64,000 nt of DNA. Origin: Panopea generosa. Lineage: Eukaryota > Mollusca > Bivalvia > Adapedonta > Hiatellidae. Below, piece after piece: positions 29,450-56,990 of this stretch (position 1 is its first letter; the number at the start of each line of letters is the position of its first letter). A program made the translations under genes and the position numbers. Location: contig CM055897.1 of assembly GCA_029582155.1 (NCBI GenBank), forward strand, positions 18,961,535 through 19,025,534, read 5' to 3'. The notes beneath the pieces are model-generated. The model did no database searches. It was not told where the DNA came from and saw nothing but the letters and a program-made list of their open reading frames with translations.

Positions 29450-30560
29450 CCCAAAGGGGGGGGGGGAGCATATAGTTGCCGCTTCGTCCGTGCGTCCGTC
29501 CGTCCGTGCGTCATCAATTCTTGTCCGGGCTATTTCTCTCCAACCTCTGGTTAGAAATTTATGAAACTTGCTAGAATGCATCATTATCAAGTGCAGATGC
29601 GCATATTGTCTTTATGTTACGGTTCGATGATTTTTCACAGAGTTATGGCCCTTTGATTGTCTGTGACCAAATTGTTGTCCGGGCTATTTCTCTACAACCT
29701 CTGGTTGGAATTTTATGAAACTTTCTAGGATGCATCATTACCAAGTGCAGACGCGCATATTGTCTATGTGTTGCGTTCGATGTTTTTTCACGGAGTTATG
29801 GCCCTTTGATTGAGTCTGTGACCAAATTATTATCCGCGCTATTTCTCTACAACACCATGTTGGAATTTTATGAAACTTGCTTGGATGCATCATTACCAAG
29901 TGCAGATGCTCATATTGTCTGTGTTTCGGTTCGATGATTTGTTATGGCGTTTTTACCCTTTCATTGAGTCTGTGACCAAATTATTGTCCGTTCTTTTTCT
30001 CTACAACCTCAGGTTGGAATTTTATGAAACTTGCCAAGATGCATCATTTCCAAGTGCAGATGCACATATTGTCTTTATGTTGCGGTTCGATGATTTTTCA
30101 CGGAGTTATGGCCCTTTGATTTTGTCTGTGACCAAATTCTTGTCCGCGCTATTTCTCTACTACCCCATGTTTGAATTTAATGAAACTTGCTAGGATGCAT
30201 CACTACCAAGTGGAGATGCGCATATTGTCTTTGTGTTCTGGTTCGATGATTTTCGTGGACTTATGACCCTTTCATTGAGTCTGACCAAATTATTGTCCGT
30301 GCTATTTCTCTACAACCTCAGGTTTGAATTTTATGAAATTTGCTATGCTTGTGTTCCAGTTCAATAATTGTTCACGAAGTAGTTGCCCTTTCATTCTGTC
30401 TGTGACCAAACTCTTCTCCGCTCCATTTCTCTACAACCTCTGGTTGGAATTTAATGAAACTTGCTGGGATGCATGATTTCCAAGTGGAGATGTGCATATT
30501 GTCTTCATGACGCTATTTTGCTACAACCTCTGGTTTTAATTTTGTAAAACTAGCTAGGAT
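29450..30560 (+). repeat. Tandem repeat of about 155 bp, eight units
   Basis: The recurring block is ttgtccgggctatttctcta then caacctctggttggaatttt, agtgcagatgcgcatattgt and ttatggccctttgattg. Units start near 29523, 29674, 29830, 29983, 30140, 30293, 30412 and 30508; the last two are shortened. The left end has a G run and (gtcc)n, a form familiar from bivalve repeats. Confidence 0.8.
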
Positions 30561-41327: not shown

Positions 41328-42668
41328 CTTCCATGAAAATAAATACACCATTAGTGCATAACCACGAATTAGTTACTCATGAATAGTAAGCATGACTATT
41401 AGCTCATTAGTATTCATTCATTACTATCCTTCCGTACTAGAAAAACAAGTTGGTTGCTTTTAAAAAGCATCCAATGGTAAGGTCTTATAAACGATGTGGC
41501 AATTAAAGTGAATGAATATGTAGGTCTGGTACCTTGTACAGGGTACTAAATACACAGCGAATTCCCGGCTGCAGGTGTGCCTGATAGTAACATTGATGTT
41601 TAAATGTACTGAAATCAATCATTATGTATTTTCATTTGCATATTTAAAAAAAAAACTTATATATTGTCTTACGTACTTACTGCTATGTTCTATACAATTT
41701 ACTATTGTGATAATAATATATTTTAAAATAATTCGTATCCATATTTTAAATTAATTTGTGGATGTATTATTTTTAAAAACAACAGTTGAAAATTACTGTT
41801 TTCGAAAACTTGTGCATTCGGCGTTATATTGTTATGGGTTCAGCATATTAAAATAATTGAGTAAATACATCGTTATTTGAAAATTATTTACATTAACTAG
41901 GTAGGAATCTGTCAGAAACGGCGATAAATTGTCAAAAAAGATAAGTTTCAAGACCTCATTTAAGCAAGGAATTTTAGAAAATTCCTTGATTTAAGGCATT
42001 ATATTTTTATTCCTGATTAAATATGCAAAGAACAATTCATAGTGATCTCAATTAGTGCATTAAAACAATCAATTATCACACACACCGTATTTGAATTTTC
42101 GATTTAGCCGGAAAGTGGTCGGAACATGACTAGGTTTTAATATCAATAGCGGTTTGTACATTTCCATGATGCACTGTTTAGAAAAACAATGGCGTCCTCC
42201 ATGTGGCGAATGCCGTGTTTTAACACGTGATCATGACGTTTCAATATGGCAGCGCCTAAAGTCATTTTCTTAACTCGCCCTTATATAGGGTTCGGTCGCT
42301 CATGCGACTTAAACAATAATACAGCTTTAGTGGTCACCAAAGTAGAAAAAGATCAACGTTTTATTTAATTACTACGCTAAGCAGTGATTCCATTGTAAAT
42401 ACAGCAACATTTAGTTACCAGAACAAATCTTCACTGTACACAATTCAGCTCAGAAATAAGCAGGTCACCACTGAATAACAGCTTCAAATTTTTTAACTAA
42501 GATCTATAATAGAAAGCAGGAAGAACTCCACCTCGGGACTAAACAATTTGTCCTACCAAATGTTCAAGCACTTGCCTAGTTCAGCACAAGATATATGAAC
42601 TTGAACTATATAACCAGGTGTGGAAAAGTGGTGTATACCGAGTAGCGTGAAAGCATTATAGGATTTTT

Positions 42669-44997: not shown

Positions 44998-46085
44998 CTG
45001 TATAATTGTTAACATTTTCATTGGTCGTTGTTAATATCCTTAACCACAGCTTATAATTGGTGACATTTTCATTTGTCGTTGTTAGAATATCTTTTCACAC
45101 AACTTATAATTGATGACATTTCCACTGGTCATGTTGCTGATATCTTGTTTTTACACAGTTTATAATTGGTAACATTTGCTTTGGTCGTCGTAGAATATCA
45201 TTTTACACAGCTTATTATTGGTGACATTTTCATTGGTCGTTGTTTGAATGTCCTTTAACACAGCTTGTTATTGTCAACATGTTCATTGGTCGTTGTTAAT
45301 GTCAATACTCACAGCTTATTATTTGTGACATTTGAATTGGTCGTGGTTGGAATGTCCTTTCACACAGCTTTTATTTGGTAACTTTTTCATTGGTCGTTTT
45401 TTCATGTCTTTTCATACTACTTATTATTTGTGACATTTGCATTGGTCGTTGTTAGAATGTCCTTTCAAACAGCTTTTAATTGTTAACATTTTAATGGTCG
45501 TTTTCAATGTCCTTTCATAGTACGTATTATTAGTGACAGTTTCATTGGTCGTTGTTAGAATGTCCTTTCACATAGCTTATTACTGGCGATATTTTCATTG
45601 ATCGTGTTTTTGATGTCTTTTTATACAGACTATAATTGTTGACATTTTTTTGGTTGTTGTTGTGTCCTTTTACACGGCGTATTATTGGTGACATTGGTCG
45701 TTGTTGATGTTCTTTAACACGGCTAGTAATTGTTGACATTTTTATTGGTCGTTGTTAATGGACAATTACACAGAATAAAATTACTAATATTTGCATTAGT
45801 CGTTGTTTTTAACAGTTTAAATCTGTTTACATGTGCATGTGTCGGTCGTTGTTATTGTCATTTTACACTGCTTATAATAGCTGACATTTGCATTTGTCGT
45901 TGTTAATGTCTTGTTACATTGTCTATAATTGCTGACTTTTGTCACTGTTAATATTCTTTTAAGTGGTTGACATTTGCTTGTGTAGTTGTTTTATCTTTAT
46001 ACACGCCTTATAACTATGAACATTGTTATATGTCTTTACAACTTATAATTGTTAATTTTTACATTGTCGTTGTTAATTTCCTTAT
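44998..46085 (+). repeat. Degenerate minisatellite array, array 2
   Basis: Same unit as 33985-35640: gtcctttcacacagcttat, attggtgacattttcattgg and tcgttgttagaatgtcc. The two arrays are 9.4 kb apart in the same orientation. Units become more diverged toward the right end. Confidence 0.8.
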
Positions 46086-46129
46086 CGTCTCAAACATTTA
46101 ATTTTGCGTTGTTCTACCTATATAAAAAT

Positions 46130-46503
46130 GCAGTTCTGGAACACTGAAAACATAACCGATGTTTCTGAAAGTGCCTGTTGAAAAAAACACTGGGTTGACC
46201 AGATTGCTTTGACACAATTTCGACGGTTTGATGGCACTCCTTTAATTTTGGCAGTTGTGCCTATTTGGTGTGGTGTATCACTTTGCATCTTTAAACTGTT
46301 ATTATAGCTTTATCAATCGGTACCCAATGTCATATATACATGGCAGAACTCATGAAAATTTCCATTGTTAACATATGTTCAAAGAAATATGACAATCTTG
46401 GGTATTTTCAACAAAAATAATGCCCAACCGATTTACACAGCTCTAATTTCTTGGGCGCAAGAATCTACTGTCATGTAAGGGAAGTAATTATTAAGTGAAA
46501 CCT
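46130..46503 (+). repeat. Interspersed repeat family R1, copy 3
   Basis: Begins near agttctggaacactgaaaac, continues with ggtttgatggcactccttta, and ends at gtcatgtaagggaagtaatt. More diverged than the other two. It interrupts the minisatellite array family between 46085 and 46505. Confidence 0.7.
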
Positions 46504-46504
46504 T

Positions 46505-46690
46505 AACATTATCTAATATTTAACATTGGTAGTTGACCTTCTTAATGTCATTTTACACAGCTTGTAACTGTTAACATTTACATTTGTTGTTGTTGTTAAT
46601 ACCCTTTAACACAGCTCAATAATGTTAACAGTGACATTTGTCGTTATTAAAGTCATTTTATATAACTTATAATTGGCCATGTTTACATTT
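46505..46690 (+). repeat. Short third piece of the same minisatellite
   Basis: A few units: cattttacacagcttgtaac, ttaacatttacatttgttgt and ccctttaacacagctc. It lies between a copy of the 390-bp repeat and the GNPTAB CR1 exon. Confidence 0.65.
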
Positions 46691-46787
46691 GCTGTTGTTG
46701 ATTTAATTGGAAATAATGTCTTTACACACACAATTATTGTTATTATTTGCATTTGCGTTTGTCTAATTTAATTTAATTTTACACACA

Positions 46788-46890
46788 TTTTTTGCCATTT
46801 TGTTCAGTTCTTCATTCATCATAGATTTTGCTCGATAAGATGATATTGTTCACACATGCGTAAATGAATCGAGAATGTCATCAGTAAACA
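46788..46890 (+). pseudogene. Decayed duplicate of the GNPTAB CR1 exon start
   Basis: This stretch aligns with the end of the intron and the first ~90 bases of the exon at 46964, offset by about 153 bp. Shared blocks are tttttgcca, cttcattcat, gatattg followed by cacac, and aaatgaatcgag against aaatgtatcgag. An AG acceptor-like site remains (tttgttcag at 46807), but the reading frame soon meets a stop. I read it as a tandem duplicate of exon plus splice site that has lost function. Confidence 0.6.
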
Positions 46891-46963
46891 TTAATTTTTA
46901 TTATTATTAATATATGATTTTGTGAATTGACTTTTTGCCACATTTTATTGCCATTATTTGCAG

Positions 46964-47146
46964 GTCTTCATTCATGGATTCTGACCTGAAAGTTGATATT
47001 GCACACACCCATGTAAATGTATCGAGTATACCGTCAAGAGGCAGTATACCACAAGTTGATATTGTATACACTTGGGTGAATGGATCTGATCCTGGGTTTA
47101 TTGCTGATCTTGACCGTTTCATGTACGACCACTTTAACGATGACAG
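46964..47146 (+). CDS. GNPTAB: GNPTAB exon with Stealth CR1 core and an in-frame near-repeat
   Basis: The acceptor is ttatttgcag and the donor gatgacag|gtatag. The exon enters with one base of a split codon and leaves with two (AG), which pair with the first G of the next exon to make Arg. The CR1 motif [13 protein letters not shown] is preceded 21 codons earlier by a weaker version, [13 protein letters not shown]. Human GNPTAB has a single such motif. An ATG lies a few codons in, but the good acceptor argues for an upstream exon that I could not find. Confidence 0.9.
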
Positions 47147-48695: not shown

Positions 48696-51600
48696 ATCCC
48701 ATGTTCCCTAAGCGTTTTTAGTACTTTGTGTATGTTAACCAAGGTCTAAGTGGGAAGTGAAAGATCCTCTTGAAGCTGGTAAGGCTATAATATTATAATA
48801 TATATATGGGAGAGATAATAAATTAATTATTAAAAGTCAATTAATACAAACAAACAATACTGAATTCTTTAAAAAAAAAAAAAAACCTGAGCGCTTTAGG
48901 AATATATATTATTCCATCTACTGGTGATGAGAATGAAAATATAAATGATGATAATGTTCAGATATCAAACGATTACGATGATATAAACATGGAAGTGTTG
49001 GAAAATCACAACAAAAATTAATAAAATTGTGAAAACGTTCACAAATCATGATGTGTGCCTTATTCGCGCAAACACTTCACAAAAATATAAAGCAAATTGT
49101 GAAATTTATAAGAAAAATACCGTGTTTTCAGTGAAATACGCCGGTAAAATTCAAACTGTACTGATATGAGTAAAATGTAAAGCGCAAAGTTATTAAAGAA
49201 AACGTCACTCTGACGTGACGTCACACGACGTCGTGTACTCTTTAGCGCTATGACGTCGTAAGTATTTGCACGGCGACATTTAATTCAAACGTCAAAAATA
49301 CAACTGGTATTATAAAAAAGGATTGCGCCGCATACACCAATAAATATATATAAAGGTGACCAGGGAACTGTAACTACCATATTACAGCTTTGACAATATT
49401 TTGCTAGTTGCATAATATAATTGTAATGCATACAAATAATATGTTTAACACGACCTTTGAAATTATATGCTTTAACAGAAATAACAATGCAAATCTAGTA
49501 ACTGAGCTAGTTGTGTATATGTGCCAATGTATACCATTTCGCATCGCTAAACTATGTTACAATCTTATCAAGAAAATTATACTTGAGTTTTCTCAATGAA
49601 CCACTACATGTGTGTTATAACGTTATAAACATTATACTTCACTCATGTAAATTAATCGTAAATGAATTATGACGTAAGGGTCCAAAGGGTCGAGTGGTTT
49701 AAAGGGCGATCACAAAATCATTTATCTATCACCGCTAAGGGCGAATATTCGAGTCCTGCTTGCTCCATATAAGACAAAGTTTACCAGTTACTTGCGGAAG
49801 GACAGTGGTTCTAATCAAATTTATTCTGAGACCTTCCTCCACCAGTAAAACTGAATATGCCTAAAATAACCTGAAATGTGTTGAACATGACGTTCAAATC
49901 TATTACATTATAGGTAATTATTGTGTAAATCCAATAATAAATTGGGAACAAAATAAGGAACTATGTATCTCACAAGTAGTAACGCCAATAGTATACTCGT
50001 ATATTACTTATCACGTATATCTCTATTTTAATGTCAATTCAATGTGAGAATGACTATGACCATTCACAGAAATTGGCAAAATATGTATTAATAATGTTTA
50101 AATCTTTTACGTATATGAAACATAAGATGCGGATTATATTTGTTCCGCGGAATCATCCCATCCCAAGAAAATAGTCAGTTGAAAAATATTGGGTTTAAAA
50201 ATGTGCTATGTTTCAGAGAATTCAATTTTTTCCAGTGATGTTTTGAATGTTTATATTTCATTTTCAAAATACTGTTTCTTTCAACTTAACAGGAACAATG
50301 TCAGAAGTAAAATTATTCTGTTGGACACACTGGTAAGTGTGCAAGTGTTAGCAGCGGCATCTCCAGTGTTACAGCAGGCTAAACGTGTATTCCCTGTCAA
50401 GTTACATAAGACAAACAAAAAGTTCACTGCCGTAGAGTTTACAGACGACAAATATGGTACGAGGTTTTGTAAAATTAAAAGCAGTTAAGCCGTCCCTTTA
50501 TGCAATCCGTTTGGGTTCACAGTCTATCGGATGTTGGTTATATTGTTATTGAGATTAAGCTTAATATAGTATATGTTACACCAATGTATACAAAACATAA
50601 AGTAGAACATCGTCAAGATAAAGTTACAGGAGACAATATAGAAATACTTCGCATCGTGATATATAACGATATGTTTTATTTCTATTTGAAACAAACAACG
50701 ATGATGTAGAGTGATGAATACATTACATGTCAATTACATCCACGCGTATTTATTTACAATGGTGACGTAACTCCTTCATTGAATCTATATATAGAATTCT
50801 GTTATTATATTTATGTAATTATTTTGGCTACGCAAGAATGTTTGTATTCTTCACTTACAGTCCGTATCTTTTGTTTACTTAAGTATAGTTGTTATCGTAA
50901 CACTGACCGATATAGATTAGTCAGGTATTCAATTATCAATTGGTTGCATATTATTAACAAACTGTCATTACGCGCGTTATGTATACCTATACTGTACAAT
51001 GATGTCTTTGTCCAATTATTTACTAACTTTGAATCGATTATGCATGTACCTATTTCATGATTTAATTTACTTTAGTATCAGAAGCTCTGAAAACCATTTT
51101 CTGGATTAACAGCAGGAATATATCAAGCAGTTCGTGTTTTTACGTGAGTAATTTGGTATTAACAACGAACAGATCATTACATTATTCTTTACTCTTGCAC
51201 ATCATAATCTTAGTAATGCAGAAAAATTCATTTTAGAATATCATTAATACCTTATTATCGAACGAGGTAATTGTTAAAAGGCAAAATCCGAATTCATTGT
51301 TACATCGAAGAATGAATCGTCAAGTGATATGATAATTGATAAAAAATCAAATATATATAAAGTAACACAACAATTACCTATACATTCACGTAATTGAATG
51401 AAAATCTGTGTTAAATTAGATATTTATGCTTTGGGCGTTTACCACTTTCAGAAATTTGATGCATTATTGACCGTTGGAGCTTCAATCACACTGTCCAATC
51501 AAATATTAATGAAAGGATTACGTAACTACAAAGAAGCTGATCATGTGTTATCGATGATTCCAAAAGGTTTCCGAATGCATATAGAACAGGTAAACTCTAT

Positions 51601-54600
51601 TGAACATTTAGTTCGGTCGAAATCTGTTTTCCAATACAGACTTAAACGATTTGACTAAGGCGCGAAACCAGAATGGTACTGTGTACGAGTTCGATAAATT
51701 ACAATTGATGACTTAGTCTGGTTCCATGACTCGCCAGTAAATACTCGACTTGTCGGTAGTATGTCAGGGTACCATACAAGTGATGACTATTTATTTTCGG
51801 TAGTTTCTGTTTAGCAATTGGTGAAATAAGAATAGTCAGTCTATTATTTTTAGACCTGAGTCTGCTTAAAATTGTAAAAGACTGTAACCATAACAACTGA
51901 ATAAGCTAGGTTCCGTGATAGTATGAGATAGTTCAAGACCCCGTAACATTCAAATTGGCCTGCAACATAAACATCACTTCCTGTCGTCTGTCAAAAATAG
52001 TAAATAGTTGATGTCTGCATCTACTATGTTTGATTTAACATAACAATTAAAAGTATTGGAACCAGTATATGGAAATATGAAAAACATGCATTTTGGAATG
52101 AAAATTGAATAATGATGTTTTAAGCAGTGCCTAATTTCATATCAATCGCATTTCTCTTAATAACCGCTCGTGAACCGATGCTTTACACATGTTTGTCGTA
52201 TTATCCTACTATGGATATTAATAGGAATCTTTATTACACTGATAAAATTATAAAAAATATTTCAGATAGATGTTTATCCCGAACACGACGCGGCTGTTTT
52301 GCACGTTACTGACAAAAGAGATGCTGATAAACTATTAAAGGTAGGTCTTATTATCAAAAAGTATTGCCGATTTTCATAAGAATTGACATTTAACGAAACT
52401 AATATTGATGAAAGACAAAAAAGTGTTTCCCTTTACATTCTATAAGAATGTTCAGTCAAATAAGTATTAAAAACTGTTTTTTCTTCCTATAATGCGTTCA
52501 TTCAATAAATATCAATACGGATAAAATATATTTATTGAAAGTTGTTGTGGGGATGGGGGTGGGGAAGTTTTTTTGTCAACAATTGTTTTTATAAAACATA
52601 AACTACTGTGATTCTCAACACATCATTTACATGAGTGTGTCCTTTTATGAATAACATAGATGCCAGTGGAGGATGCAGCGGAAGACCTTCCTAAAGTTCA
52701 GAGAATTGACTTGATGTGTAATCTAAGAAAGGTAAGCTTCATTTAATAACTAACTAGGTTCTAATCATTTTTTATATGTCATTAAACAATTATAAATGTA
52801 GCCATGTAGTATTTTTGTGTAGAAACAGAACAGTTTTACAATGAATACGAAAAAAACAAACAACAAAACATGTAATGTTAAACTAAATACAAATATAATA
52901 AAGCTTTGATAATTAAATATCAAGATCTGATGCTATCAATAGTTATACACATTTGTTTTCAATATAAAACAAGGTGAATGTTTGGTTATATGCATATTCG
53001 AATTCCGTCTCAGGTTTCAATACATCTGGTTGTTGTTTATGATTTCAATGAAATAGGGGAGTATTCGGTTAAGTAAATATTCGAATTCTACCTCAGATTT
53101 CAATACATCTGGTTGGTTGTTATGATTTCAATGAATTTGATGGGTATCTGTCTAAATAAATATTCGAATTCTGCCTCAGGTTGCTGTTATGATTTCAATG
53201 CAATAGGAAGTATCTGGTACAATATTTTTTTAAATTCTATCTCAAGTTTCAATACCTCTTGTTTGTTGTTATTATTTCAATGAACTAGGGGAGTATCAGG
53301 TTAAATATATATTCAAGCTCTATCTCAGGTTTCAATACTTCTGGTTTGTTGTTATTATTTCAATGAACTAGGGGAGTATCAGGTTAAATATATATTCAAG
53401 CTCTATCTCAGGTTTCAATACTTCTGGTTTGTTGTAATGGTTTCAACAAACTAATGGAGTATCTGGTTAAATAAATATTCAAATTCCACCTCAGGTTTCA
53501 ATATCACTGGTTTGTTGTTATGATTTCAATGCAATAGGGAAGTATATTGTTAAAAGAATATTTAAATTATGTCCAAGGTTTTATTACCTTTGATTTGCTG
53601 TTATGATTTCAATGAACTAAGGGAGTATCTGTTCGAATTCTGCTTGCATGTGAGATGGATATTTTGATTCCGTTCCAATACCTCTAGTTTGTTGTTATGA
53701 TTTGAATGAACTAAAACTTTCGTCTTCACAATATTTGAGAAAGTTGTATGATACCAATATGATATAAAATATGAAGTTGAAATATTTAGATGCAGACCCT
53801 TAATTTCGCTTTTGTTTTGGTAAAATATCTTTTAAAACGATCAATTTAGGCAAATAAAAAACGTTATTAACGTTAACATTAACGATTACATTTATCTTTA
53901 AAATAGTGCTTTTTTAAATATAGCTGGATAATTAGTCAGTATGAAATTGATGTTTTTAATGTCAATAATATGTACATAATACGTGTAAATACGCATCCAG
54001 TCGCTTAACGTGAGAAGTACTGAATCTTGAAAATGACGTAAAACTGTGTTTATTGTTACCATTTACATTCATGTTGATCTAAAGACTATACCAAACTTAT
54101 GTTATTTGGCCAAAAGTAACATTTTGTTTTTTAAAAAATCACGACTGAATAGAAGAAAAAAAACTTTTACGTTACGCTTTAATAAATATGTTATGGTTGA
54201 CTAATTTTGAAATTTAAAAACGGATTACTGAAAAGAAATCAATTATGAAAATAATTAAATGCGAGTAAAATGATCAACAACAGTGTTATTTTTTTAATTA
54301 ACCTAATTATATTATGCATTAAAACTTTTTTAAATGTACCGACTGTATTATAATTATTATAATTAATTTTTAAATATGAATTCTCAGGGAGTAATACTTA
54401 GAAATTAATACTTTTATTAACATGTGTTTAAGTTTGATTTGATACGTGAAAATGTATATAATGAATTTCAATATTGCCATGTGACCTTTTTAATTAATTA
54501 GTTCCTCGTTCCAAATGTATGTTTGTAATGTTGATATGTTTGTTATAGATTATGTTCCTCAATTTGCAAATAACCTCCAATAATTCAAATAGTTACTGTT

Positions 54601-54988
54601 TGAGTAATATTATTTGCAACCCCTTATGTATTTTTATAATTTTATTGTTCATTTCATTTTATTTGCCAAAGCATACCACTAACCACACATGCGTTGTGTA
54701 AGGCTCATACTATATGTCCTTAAATATATTATATGCTAGTTACACATTATGCCATAATACAACGCACTGTTTTAACAACAGTTCATACATTTGATCTTTT
54801 GATTATAGTATCTTAGAAAGGATGTATCTGGAGCACGTCGATTTGCTGATCACGGTGGGCTTAAATACTCCCTTAGAGCCCTGGATAAGCATGCTCCCTG
54901 GGTCAGGCATGTATTTATAGTTACCAACGGACAAATACCTAATTGGCTCAACCTGGCTAATACACAAGTTTCAATTGTCAATCACAAG
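46964..54988 (+). CDS. GNPTAB: GNPTAB orthologue, partial (7 exons): GlcNAc-1-phosphotransferase alpha/beta subunit, Stealth CR1 to start of CR2
   Basis: Seven exons join in one continuous frame of about 291 codons: 46964-47146, 50293-50456, 51082-51143, 51452-51589, 52266-52340, 52660-52731 and 54809-54988. All have AG/GT borders and all phases agree. The first exon has the Stealth CR1 signature [13 protein letters not shown]; the last has the CR2 signature [19 protein letters not shown], nearly identical to vertebrate GNPTAB. The middle exons follow the human linker in order and spacing. In the known family, the enzyme sits in the Golgi membrane as a precursor cleaved into alpha and beta subunits. 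It transfers GlcNAc-1-phosphate to mannose on lysosomal hydrolases, the first step of the mannose-6-phosphate tag. Missing here are the N-terminal tail and membrane anchor, the rest of CR2, the Notch/LNR repeats, the DMAP domain, CR3, CR4 and the C-terminal membrane segment. The coding part covers roughly the first third of the human protein. The 5' exons were not identified. Confidence 0.9.
48655..48696 (+). repeat. (CT)n microsatellite in GNPTAB intron
   Basis: A run of ctctctctcgctctctctcg followed by pure CT. Confidence 0.9.
49678..49900 (+). mobile_element. tRNA-derived mollusc-type SINE in GNPTAB intron
   Basis: aagggtcgagtggtttaaag (A-box) and cgaatattcgagtcctgctt (B-box) are followed by ccagttacttgcggaaggac, ctccaccagtaaaactgaat and ataacctgaaatgtgttgaa. 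It is the clearest copy in the window and lies in the first large intron of the recognised GNPTAB exons. Confidence 0.75.
50293..50456 (+). CDS. GNPTAB: GNPTAB exon, linker after CR1
   Basis: The acceptor is caacttaacag. The exon reads [13 protein letters not shown] through [12 protein letters not shown] to [13 protein letters not shown], matching in order the human stretches KVPMLVLDP and NVSVVVFDSTKD. A strong-looking internal donor (ctg|gtaagtg, exon end 50331) would cut the exon short. Reading through it keeps the family-like sequence, so I place the end at aaatatg|gtacgag. That donor is weak, so the exact 3' border is uncertain. Confidence 0.75.
51082..51143 (+). CDS. GNPTAB: GNPTAB small exon, linker
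   Basis: A 62-bp exon with donor ttttac|gtgagta encodes [13 protein letters not shown] and a serine run. It lines up with the human stretch around RQTVWRGYLTT. It is the exon that repairs the phase: the previous exon leaves one base and the next starts on a full codon. An alternative acceptor at 51075 (exon start 51076) is also in frame and would add two residues. Confidence 0.75.
51452..51589 (+). CDS. GNPTAB: GNPTAB exon, linker before CR2
   Basis: This is a 46-codon exon in phase 0 at both ends. The acceptor is accactttcag and the donor gaacag|gtaaac. It reads [16 protein letters not shown] followed by [18 protein letters not shown], corresponding to the human region with VLMQDLAFLSGFPPTFKE. 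Confidence 0.85.
52266..52340 (+). CDS. GNPTAB: GNPTAB exon, linker before CR2
   Basis: A 25-codon phase-0 exon with acceptor aaaaatatttcag and donor attaaag|gtaggt. It encodes [19 protein letters not shown], corresponding to human [20 protein letters not shown]. Confidence 0.85.
52660..52731 (+). CDS. GNPTAB: GNPTAB exon just before CR2
   Basis: A 24-codon phase-0 exon with acceptor ataacatag and donor aagaaag|gtaagc. It encodes [19 protein letters not shown]. Similarity to vertebrates is low here, as expected for this variable linker. Placement rests on phase, splice sites and position between two recognised exons. Confidence 0.75.
52975..53720 (+). repeat. Tandem repeat of about 83-95 bp in GNPTAB intron
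   Basis: Units contain caggtttcaatacatctggt, tttgttgttatgatttcaat and gaactaggggagtatcaggt. Units at 53281 and 53364 are nearly identical with period 83, showing recent duplication. Others are diverged. Confidence 0.85.
54809..54988 (+). CDS. GNPTAB: GNPTAB exon with start of Stealth CR2
   Basis: A 60-codon phase-0 exon with acceptor gattatag and donor cacaag|gtgaga. It contains [38 protein letters not shown] and VSIVNHK. Vertebrate GNPTAB has [36 protein letters not shown] and VTIVTHQ at the same place. This is the strongest homology in the window. No continuation (family motif YLNDDVMFG) was found up to 64000. Confidence 0.95.
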
Positions 54989-54989
54989 G

Positions 54990-56990
54990 TGAGAAAACTA
55001 AAGTATTGTATTAACATTATTTCATACAAATAGAAATTTAACTATAGTATTTCAAAGGGAGTATATCTGAAAAAAACGCTATAAATGTCTAAAAAATAAT
55101 TATTTTTATCATGGATAAAAAGCATTTCATTATCATCAATAATTTTGTTCTTTATTTCAGTCACCAAATATATGGTGACCCATTTATTCACCTCGTAATA
55201 AGTCTTTGGGGGTCGGGGTAGGCCATCCCCCAACAAACCGTACAAATAATTGACATGCATGTTTATTTTTATATATATTACAAGTATGTATAACCAAGGA
55301 GCAAAAAAAAACAATGCATATTATACAAGCTATATAAATGGGGAGTTTTTTTTATGTCATTACAATTATATATATCTTCACCACGATGATTGATTTTAAC
55401 ATTATTATTTTATCATGATATAGTTCTAAATTAATCAATAGACAAAAGTGGCGAGAAAAATAAGATATAATTATATTAAATATAAATGATCAAGACAAAC
55501 AAAAATTATTAAAAAGATCTTTATAATTCATACATTTGGCTTTTCATCATGTAAAATGAAAGACATTTCCCCCCGAAAACCCAGCCTTTAATGTCACATA
55601 TAAAATAATTATTATACCAAGTTTTATTTCTACCAGGTATTCCAAACGGTTTAACAATACGAATTATATAATAAAATAATTACAGTACAAAAAATAGCAA
55701 TAAAAAAAGGCAAAATATTTCTTTTGGAGATGTGATTTCGCTTTTTCAAGTGAGACCAAAAAAAGGAAAAGAGAAACATCAGGGAACAAATTTTGCAGTT
55801 ATTTCATTTAATTAATGATTGGTCTAGGATGCAGTTATGAGTAACAGTTGACCCTGTTAATTTTTAAAAGAAAAACAACAAAACATCAATAAAATCATCA
55901 ATAAATTTGGTATTACAAATCCACCAAAATCGTGACAAAGTTGATATTTAAATTGGAGTGGTAAACAAAATCCTTATTCTAAAAATAGACAGCACTTAAA
56001 TACTGATAGACGACCTTCACATCGTCATTCGGATTATTTCTAAGATGAAAAAGTGTAACTTTATACAAGCCTGTAGATCAAGTGACTCATTTAATACGTC
56101 ACAAAATATATTGCAATTCAATTTCATTAAAATCCGATCAATTGTAAGCTGCCATACTCTACTCAAAGTCGATCTAACGGCATCGCATAAATGGTTACCT
56201 CGCAAGCCAATCCGATCATTGCTTTCAAAGTCTTGAATGCGAAAGTTGAATCTTTATTTAGCTGGGATCCCAATATCATGTGCGATTATCATGCATTTTT
56301 ATAATTGTTACGACGAGAACATTATGGCTGATTTTAATGAGATTGGTTACAATTTTAATCGGGAAATCTATTTTAGTCTAACCTAGGAGTGCAGCCCAAG
56401 TTAGGAAATACCTATTCAATATATTATTTTTCCGTGTTTAAATATATATCCTTTTGGCAATCACTGCATGAAATTTGGGATTTACTTTGCAATTAAATGT
56501 CTCCTAAACTATAACTTAATTTCGAATTTAATTGCATGGAAGTGTATTTAATGTAAACTCAATTTGGTAATTTACTTTAAATATAATAAGCATTAAATTT
56601 TTCATGATATTTCCAGATTTTCTTGGCATTTAAGTCGCTCTAAAATTTTATGAAATCCTGAAATCAATGAAATTTAAGGACAATAAATCTGATGAAATAT
56701 ATGAATTAAATGCATCTTCACATGATTAAATTTTGAATGTCAGTGAATTAAATTTTACAAAATCTCATAATTTACTTATATGTATTTAAATACTGCTAAA
56801 TTTCTCATGGGGATGAGATTTCCTGGAACTGATATTTTCCCATGAAATGCATTAAATGGGAATGTCATTAGGAAATATTGCCGTATTCTGTATAAAGATT
56901 TACAGTTATACCATTACTTAGTACAGGTATTACTGTTTAAATATCATGGAAGTGAAGAAATAAATTTTTTCTCTGCAACAGTTTAAACAT
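54990..56990. other. AT-rich DNA, probably GNPTAB intron
   Basis: No splice pair or family motif for the next GNPTAB exon was found here. It ends at the 3' UTR of the minus-strand gene. Confidence 0.45.

Follow-up and report, generated by a model that had tools for sequence, protein, structure and literature searches.

The closest described systems are the vertebrate GlcNAc-1-phosphotransferase alpha/beta protein GNPTAB (PDB 7s6n, 7s05 and 9bgg) and its Drosophila PTase homologue FI02838p (PDB 7dxi). CR1 is part of the lining of the UDP-GlcNAc pocket: in the human protein, as described in PMC11418123, Thr-80 makes a bond to the ribose, and residues 81 and 82 adjoin the uridine, with a change at 81 reducing activity. 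Judged by motif, these three residues correspond to T, W and V in YTWV. Residue 81, which we take to be Trp, is printed as Tyr in that source. Vertebrate GNPTAB has the order CR1, CR2, LNR/Notch, CR3, CR4, and the same order is found in the gene studied here, which lies in the window (the whole 64,000-nt stretch of Panopea generosa DNA that we analysed, C4:18961535-19025534 in a searched genome of 1.47 Gb and 39 contigs). The matched vertebrate chains hold one CR1, to which the window gene adds a worn copy. FI02838p has one LNR (PMC11418123), as many as have so far been found in the window gene, and gives the window CR1 exon its best match (1.3e-5; zebrafish GNPTAB, 0.0025), although its matched chain is without a CR1 duplicate and the first half of the window CR2 is nearer vertebrate GNPTAB (zebrafish, best match, 1.1e-20; fly, 8e-17). 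As a general process, tandem duplication at exon ends places a short unit head to tail and in frame at the boundary of an exon, as here; the difference is that the unit copied here is a catalytic motif and that a second event copied the acceptor too. A limited literature search (GNPTAB/Stealth, bivalves, molluscs, family expansion, CR1 duplication) found no paper on a CR1 duplicate.

Two exons of the gene define its position in the window:

46964..47146, + strand: CR1-core coding exon of a Stealth/GNPTAB-like gene, 183 nt, phase 2 to phase 2 (splice sites, Stealth_CR1 match, length in paralogues)
54809..55033, + strand: reading frame of the same gene that contains the first CR2 half, exon ends approximate (Stealth_CR2, 69.8 bits, cut-off 39.4)

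Against the Pfam Stealth_CR1 profile the CR1 exon scores 42 bits (cut-off 27.2), and the second half of CR2 (71.6 bits), CR3 (31.7) and CR4 (44.2) each exceed their Pfam cut-offs as well; CR1 to CR4 are thus all present, in order and on a single strand, at C4 19.008–19.056 Mb, as expected of a Stealth family member. Since the two halves of CR2, an LNR repeat, CR3 and CR4 follow 3' of the CR1 exon, with frames kept relative to two distant C4 paralogues, the gene spans about 50 kb and extends beyond the window. The initial annotation had called the CR1 exon a GNPTAB exon. The Stealth/GNPTAB-like part of that assignment stands, but the gene belongs to a set of at least nine similar paralogues, and by its CR1 exon the C9 copy (L028) is nearer vertebrate GNPTAB (zebrafish, 2.3e-8; fly, 0.001). 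Judged by this one short exon, L028 is the closest GNPTAB relative in the genome, and we regard the window gene as a GNPTAB-like paralogue rather than GNPTAB itself, a predicted Stealth-type GlcNAc-1-phosphotransferase paralogue. L028 carries one CR1. Elsewhere in the gene, positions 51443–51601 match PF18440 (GlcNAc-1-phosphotransferase regulatory domain, spacer 1) at 15.8 bits, below the cut-off of 26.4, and two window frames plus ten further frames, an incomplete exon list, gave no match to a DMAP-binding domain. A tblastn search with the human N-terminus did not find the exon preceding 46964 (best E 0.59); nor was an upstream membrane-anchor exon found among ATG frames with a hydrophobic stretch, which gave one weak candidate, at 41596. 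A start codon within the CR1 exon was rejected: the ATG at 46974 is absent from L025 and L026.

At least 11 CR1 places were found in the genome by Stealth_CR1 profile search, and an equal number by searching with the exon protein. Six lie at C4 18.34–19.01 Mb (L018, which is the window locus, L019, L020, L021, L023 and L024) and, together with L022 on C12, make up the seven loci that we call the cluster; the others are L026 (C4, 36.6 Mb), L025 (C4, 38.5 Mb), L027 (C5) and L028 (C9). At C4 18.33–19.06 Mb, Stealth/GNPTAB-like genes follow one another on both strands, and C12 holds a close copy at 17.80 Mb; together they make up a lineage-specific expansion. At C9 5.79–5.85 Mb there are three CR4 matches and one CR1 match, a surplus that may reflect incomplete copies of this GNPTAB-nearest gene or missed exons. 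Two CR2 matches (C4:18484017-18484208 and C4:18798025-18798153), which fit no CR1-bearing cluster gene by position, are likely partial gene copies.

The CR1 exon of the window is bounded by the acceptor TTTATTGCCATTATTTGCAG/G and the donor ACAG/GTATAG, and its first 42 full codons consist of two units of equal length:

46965..47027, + strand: first 63-nt unit, made up of the leader and the worn CR1 copy (in-register match to the adjoining 63 nt), hereafter the extension
47028..47090, + strand: second 63-nt unit, made up of the leader and the intact CR1 core (Stealth_CR1 match, 63-nt comparison, 11-mer score)
46992..47024, + strand: worn CR1-like 11-mer, 7/11 CR1 residues, Trp lost
47055..47087, + strand: intact CR1 11-mer, 11/11 CR1 residues
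46839..46871, + strand: intronic CR1-like relic DDIVHTCVNES, 7/11 CR1 residues

The motif GATATTG occurs at 46842, 46995 and 47058. The exonic copies at 46992 and 47055 both read GTTGATATTG, 63 nt apart and in one frame, and the upstream intronic copy reads ATGATATTG, differing by one base. Repeat search gathered the three into one 34-nt family (46837, 46990 and 47053; spacings 153 and 63), and among the 127,930 six-frame 11-mers of the window they are the only ones with six or more identities to the CR1 11-mer (7, 7 and 11). The initial annotation had reported a CR1-like core present three times, the last two in frame in one exon and 21 codons apart, and these observations bear it out (stretches at 46839, 46992 and 47055); of the TGG-like triplet said to follow each core, only the third copy has TGG, while the first two are without it.

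Nine of the 11 CR1 exons that were detected carry a 63-nt tandem duplication of the exon start, comprising a nine-codon leader and the CR1 core. When extension and core are compared in register, all nine agree at 32–42 of 63 nt and 8–12 of 21 residues (33 and 8 in the window), values that no more than 2 of 20000 codon shuffles and no more than 5 of 20000 residue shuffles attained, for a register that had been picked by eye beforehand. With the register left free, the alignment exceeded all 1000 shuffles in each of the eight exons tested (z 5.4–12.8; L020 left out); the window's local alignment scores 18, as compared to 7.5 ± 1.3 for dinucleotide shuffles (0/1000 reach). The clearest case is L025 (42/63 nt and 12/21 residues), where the first unit, SSLTRSTLKVDRVDTRVNGSG, stands opposite the second 21-residue unit and the free-register match is a 59-nt ungapped run beginning at the first full codon. 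That likeness improves in this distant paralogue fits a copy wearing away over time. The units are thus head to tail, alike beyond chance and a multiple of three in length, that is, an in-frame tandem duplication. The C5 and C9 exons, of equal phase, have six full codons from the acceptor (placed by eye) to CR1 and no extension, so the short form would most simply be ancestral.

The initial annotation had also placed the first copy in a larger duplicate, offset by about 153 bp, that takes in the intron end, and this is confirmed by local alignment:

46737..46883, + strand: duplicate within the intron, covering intron end, acceptor and extension (local alignment to 46898-47036)
46898..47036, + strand: source segment of the second duplication, with intron end, acceptor and exon start (local alignment)

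The two segments align with a score of 50 (shuffles 12.3 ± 2.0; 0/1000 reach), and the upstream copy aligns to the core with a score of 20 (shuffles 8.7 ± 1.3; 0/1000 reach). As none of the mutual alignments of the three copies was matched by 1000 shuffles, their likeness is not that of shuffled AT-rich sequence. The intronic copy is found at 6 of the 11 loci, the window and L019 to L023 (z 18.6–44.2), and was undetected in L024, L025, L026, L027 and L028 (z −1.6 to 0.5); in L024 its lack may be secondary loss. At least two events, an in-frame exonic one and one at the intron end, are therefore separable by means of the paralogues, as had been claimed, and they can be ordered: the second duplication would be the later. 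Read in the motif frame, the relic retains Val where the exonic worn copy shows Ala. The L023 relic, VDIVHTCVNES, keeps eight of eleven CR1 residues, against six in the exonic copy of that locus; elsewhere, relic and exonic copy keep 7 and 7 (window), 7 and 7 (L020), 7 and 8 (L021) and 6 and 7 (L019 and L022). Three of the four intronic copies that could be read for stops (L020 and L021 were missed by the search pattern) carry one in frame, the window's among them, and that of L023 is open. We rejected the intronic copy as an alternative cassette exon: from the acceptor end at 46807 to the GT at 46884 are 76 nt, a length that shifts the frame, and together with the stop this leaves no usable exon in the window's intronic copy.

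Is the extension part of the product? The initial annotation had left the choice between a product with a second CR1-like strand and an exon that begins later. In the latter case the real acceptor would fall within 47025–47055, making the CR1-like copy intronic debris like that at 46839, which we judge unlikely. Constraint on the extension is indeed weak: its dN/dS is 0.56, 0.89 and 0.95 in three comparisons, as compared to 0.08, 0.29 and 0.33 for the core, and since the bootstrap interval of the extension includes 1 in all three (that of the core in the last), dN/dS does not establish selection on it. Its freedom from stops is also just mildly unexpected, as 220 of 3000 runs (7%) of a neutral simulation yielded a stop-free extension. 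However, the exon is 183 nt long and without a stop in all nine paralogues that have the extension, acceptor and phase being common to the nine as well, and by eye the AGs at 47025–47054 of the window lack a preceding pyrimidine tract. Furthermore, distant paralogues align in the extension but not in the introns: in the four pairs of L018 or L024 with L025 or L026, the extension reaches z 7.8–8.6 (with 2–5 gaps put in by the aligner despite equal lengths) and both flanking introns −1.2 to 1.5. Between L018 and L024 the extension is 87% identical without gaps, and the introns 60–62% with 4–7 gaps. In the close pairs of L018 with L022 and L023, identity is nearly equal (introns 84–89%, extension 89–90%), and the extension therefore stands out there chiefly by its absence of gaps. 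The extension is thus probably translated under weak constraint; of the two options, the paralogues favour the longer product, although 'strand' overstates a sequence so weakly constrained and bereft of Trp in nine of nine paralogues.

We think it very unlikely that the extension functions as another CR1-like element, such as a pseudo-strand in competition with CR1 or gating it. While frame and length are preserved in 9/9 paralogues, as are the motif's Thr and Val, the Trp is gone from all nine and the Gly from seven, and across the three comparisons dN/dS for the CR1-like codons comes to 0.65, 1.25 and 1.44; the core, in turn, keeps T, W and V of YTWV in all nine. Given the loss of Trp and these ratios, the extension cannot simply replace CR1. 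A broader version, with the worn CR1 as a pseudo-element next to the catalytic CR1, gating or regulating donor binding throughout an expanded invertebrate Stealth family, seems to us most improbable. The plainest reading is that the extension is a decayed CR1 copy that would now serve as a linker before the true CR1. That the exonic likeness arose by chance or convergence, as the mere 7/11 residues of the window copy might suggest, is barely credible given the shuffle tests in and out of register, the stronger likeness of the more divergent L025 across the whole unit (42/63 nt) and the failure of any further 11-mer among the 127,930 to reach six. An assembly artefact is unlikely because the in-frame pair recurs at nine separate places and the intronic copy at six.

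As a whole, the observations are, with high probability, best explained by a two-step duplication with the worn extension as linker. An ancestor of the nine paralogues would have gained a tandem, in-frame copy of the opening 63 nt of the CR1 exon, immediately after the phase-2 acceptor. The copy adjoining CR2 would have remained the catalytic CR1, and the acceptor-side copy, its Trp lost, would have become by drift a linker of 21 residues that connects the N-terminal part of the protein to the catalytic domain. The second tandem duplication, offset by about 153 bp and taking in intron end, acceptor and extension, would predate the split of six of the seven closest paralogues, its upstream copy having remained intronic and decaying. 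With CR1 doubled in frame, one copy released and the events placed in order, the locus may be read as a natural record of exon-start growth, and gene models at these loci may trim or misplace the exon start. The known picture of the pathway is unchanged: this is a modest case of small tandem duplication in a lineage-specific family.

The intron before the CR1 exon also holds an array of repeats:

45001..46762, + strand: degenerate minisatellite of about 52 bp (TRF and repeat search)

TRF reports 45001–45760 with a period of 53 and 14.7 copies, and additional copies run as far as 46762. The units bear an acceptor-like TTTCACACAG, and ACACAG occurs eight times in 45001–46783 (0.9 expected by length), placing an array of acceptor look-alikes directly 5' of the real acceptor of the CR1 exon. 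Slips are common in minisatellite settings. The minisatellite may have caused the second duplication, and 153 being 3 × 51 would suggest exchange between its units; within the intron part, the offset of the second duplication is 161.

Repeats of other periods were seen in the same genes. A 40-codon stretch that is single in the window gene (C4:19047069-19047188, beyond the window) forms 152-bp tandem arrays of 8.7 and 5.0 copies in two distant paralogues, at loci around C4 36.57–36.58 Mb and 38.55 Mb (the neighbourhoods of L042 and L037). Finally, an intronic repeat at 29482–30254 of the window, with a period of about 155 bp, recurs in the 38.5-Mb paralogue, 5' of its CR1 exon.
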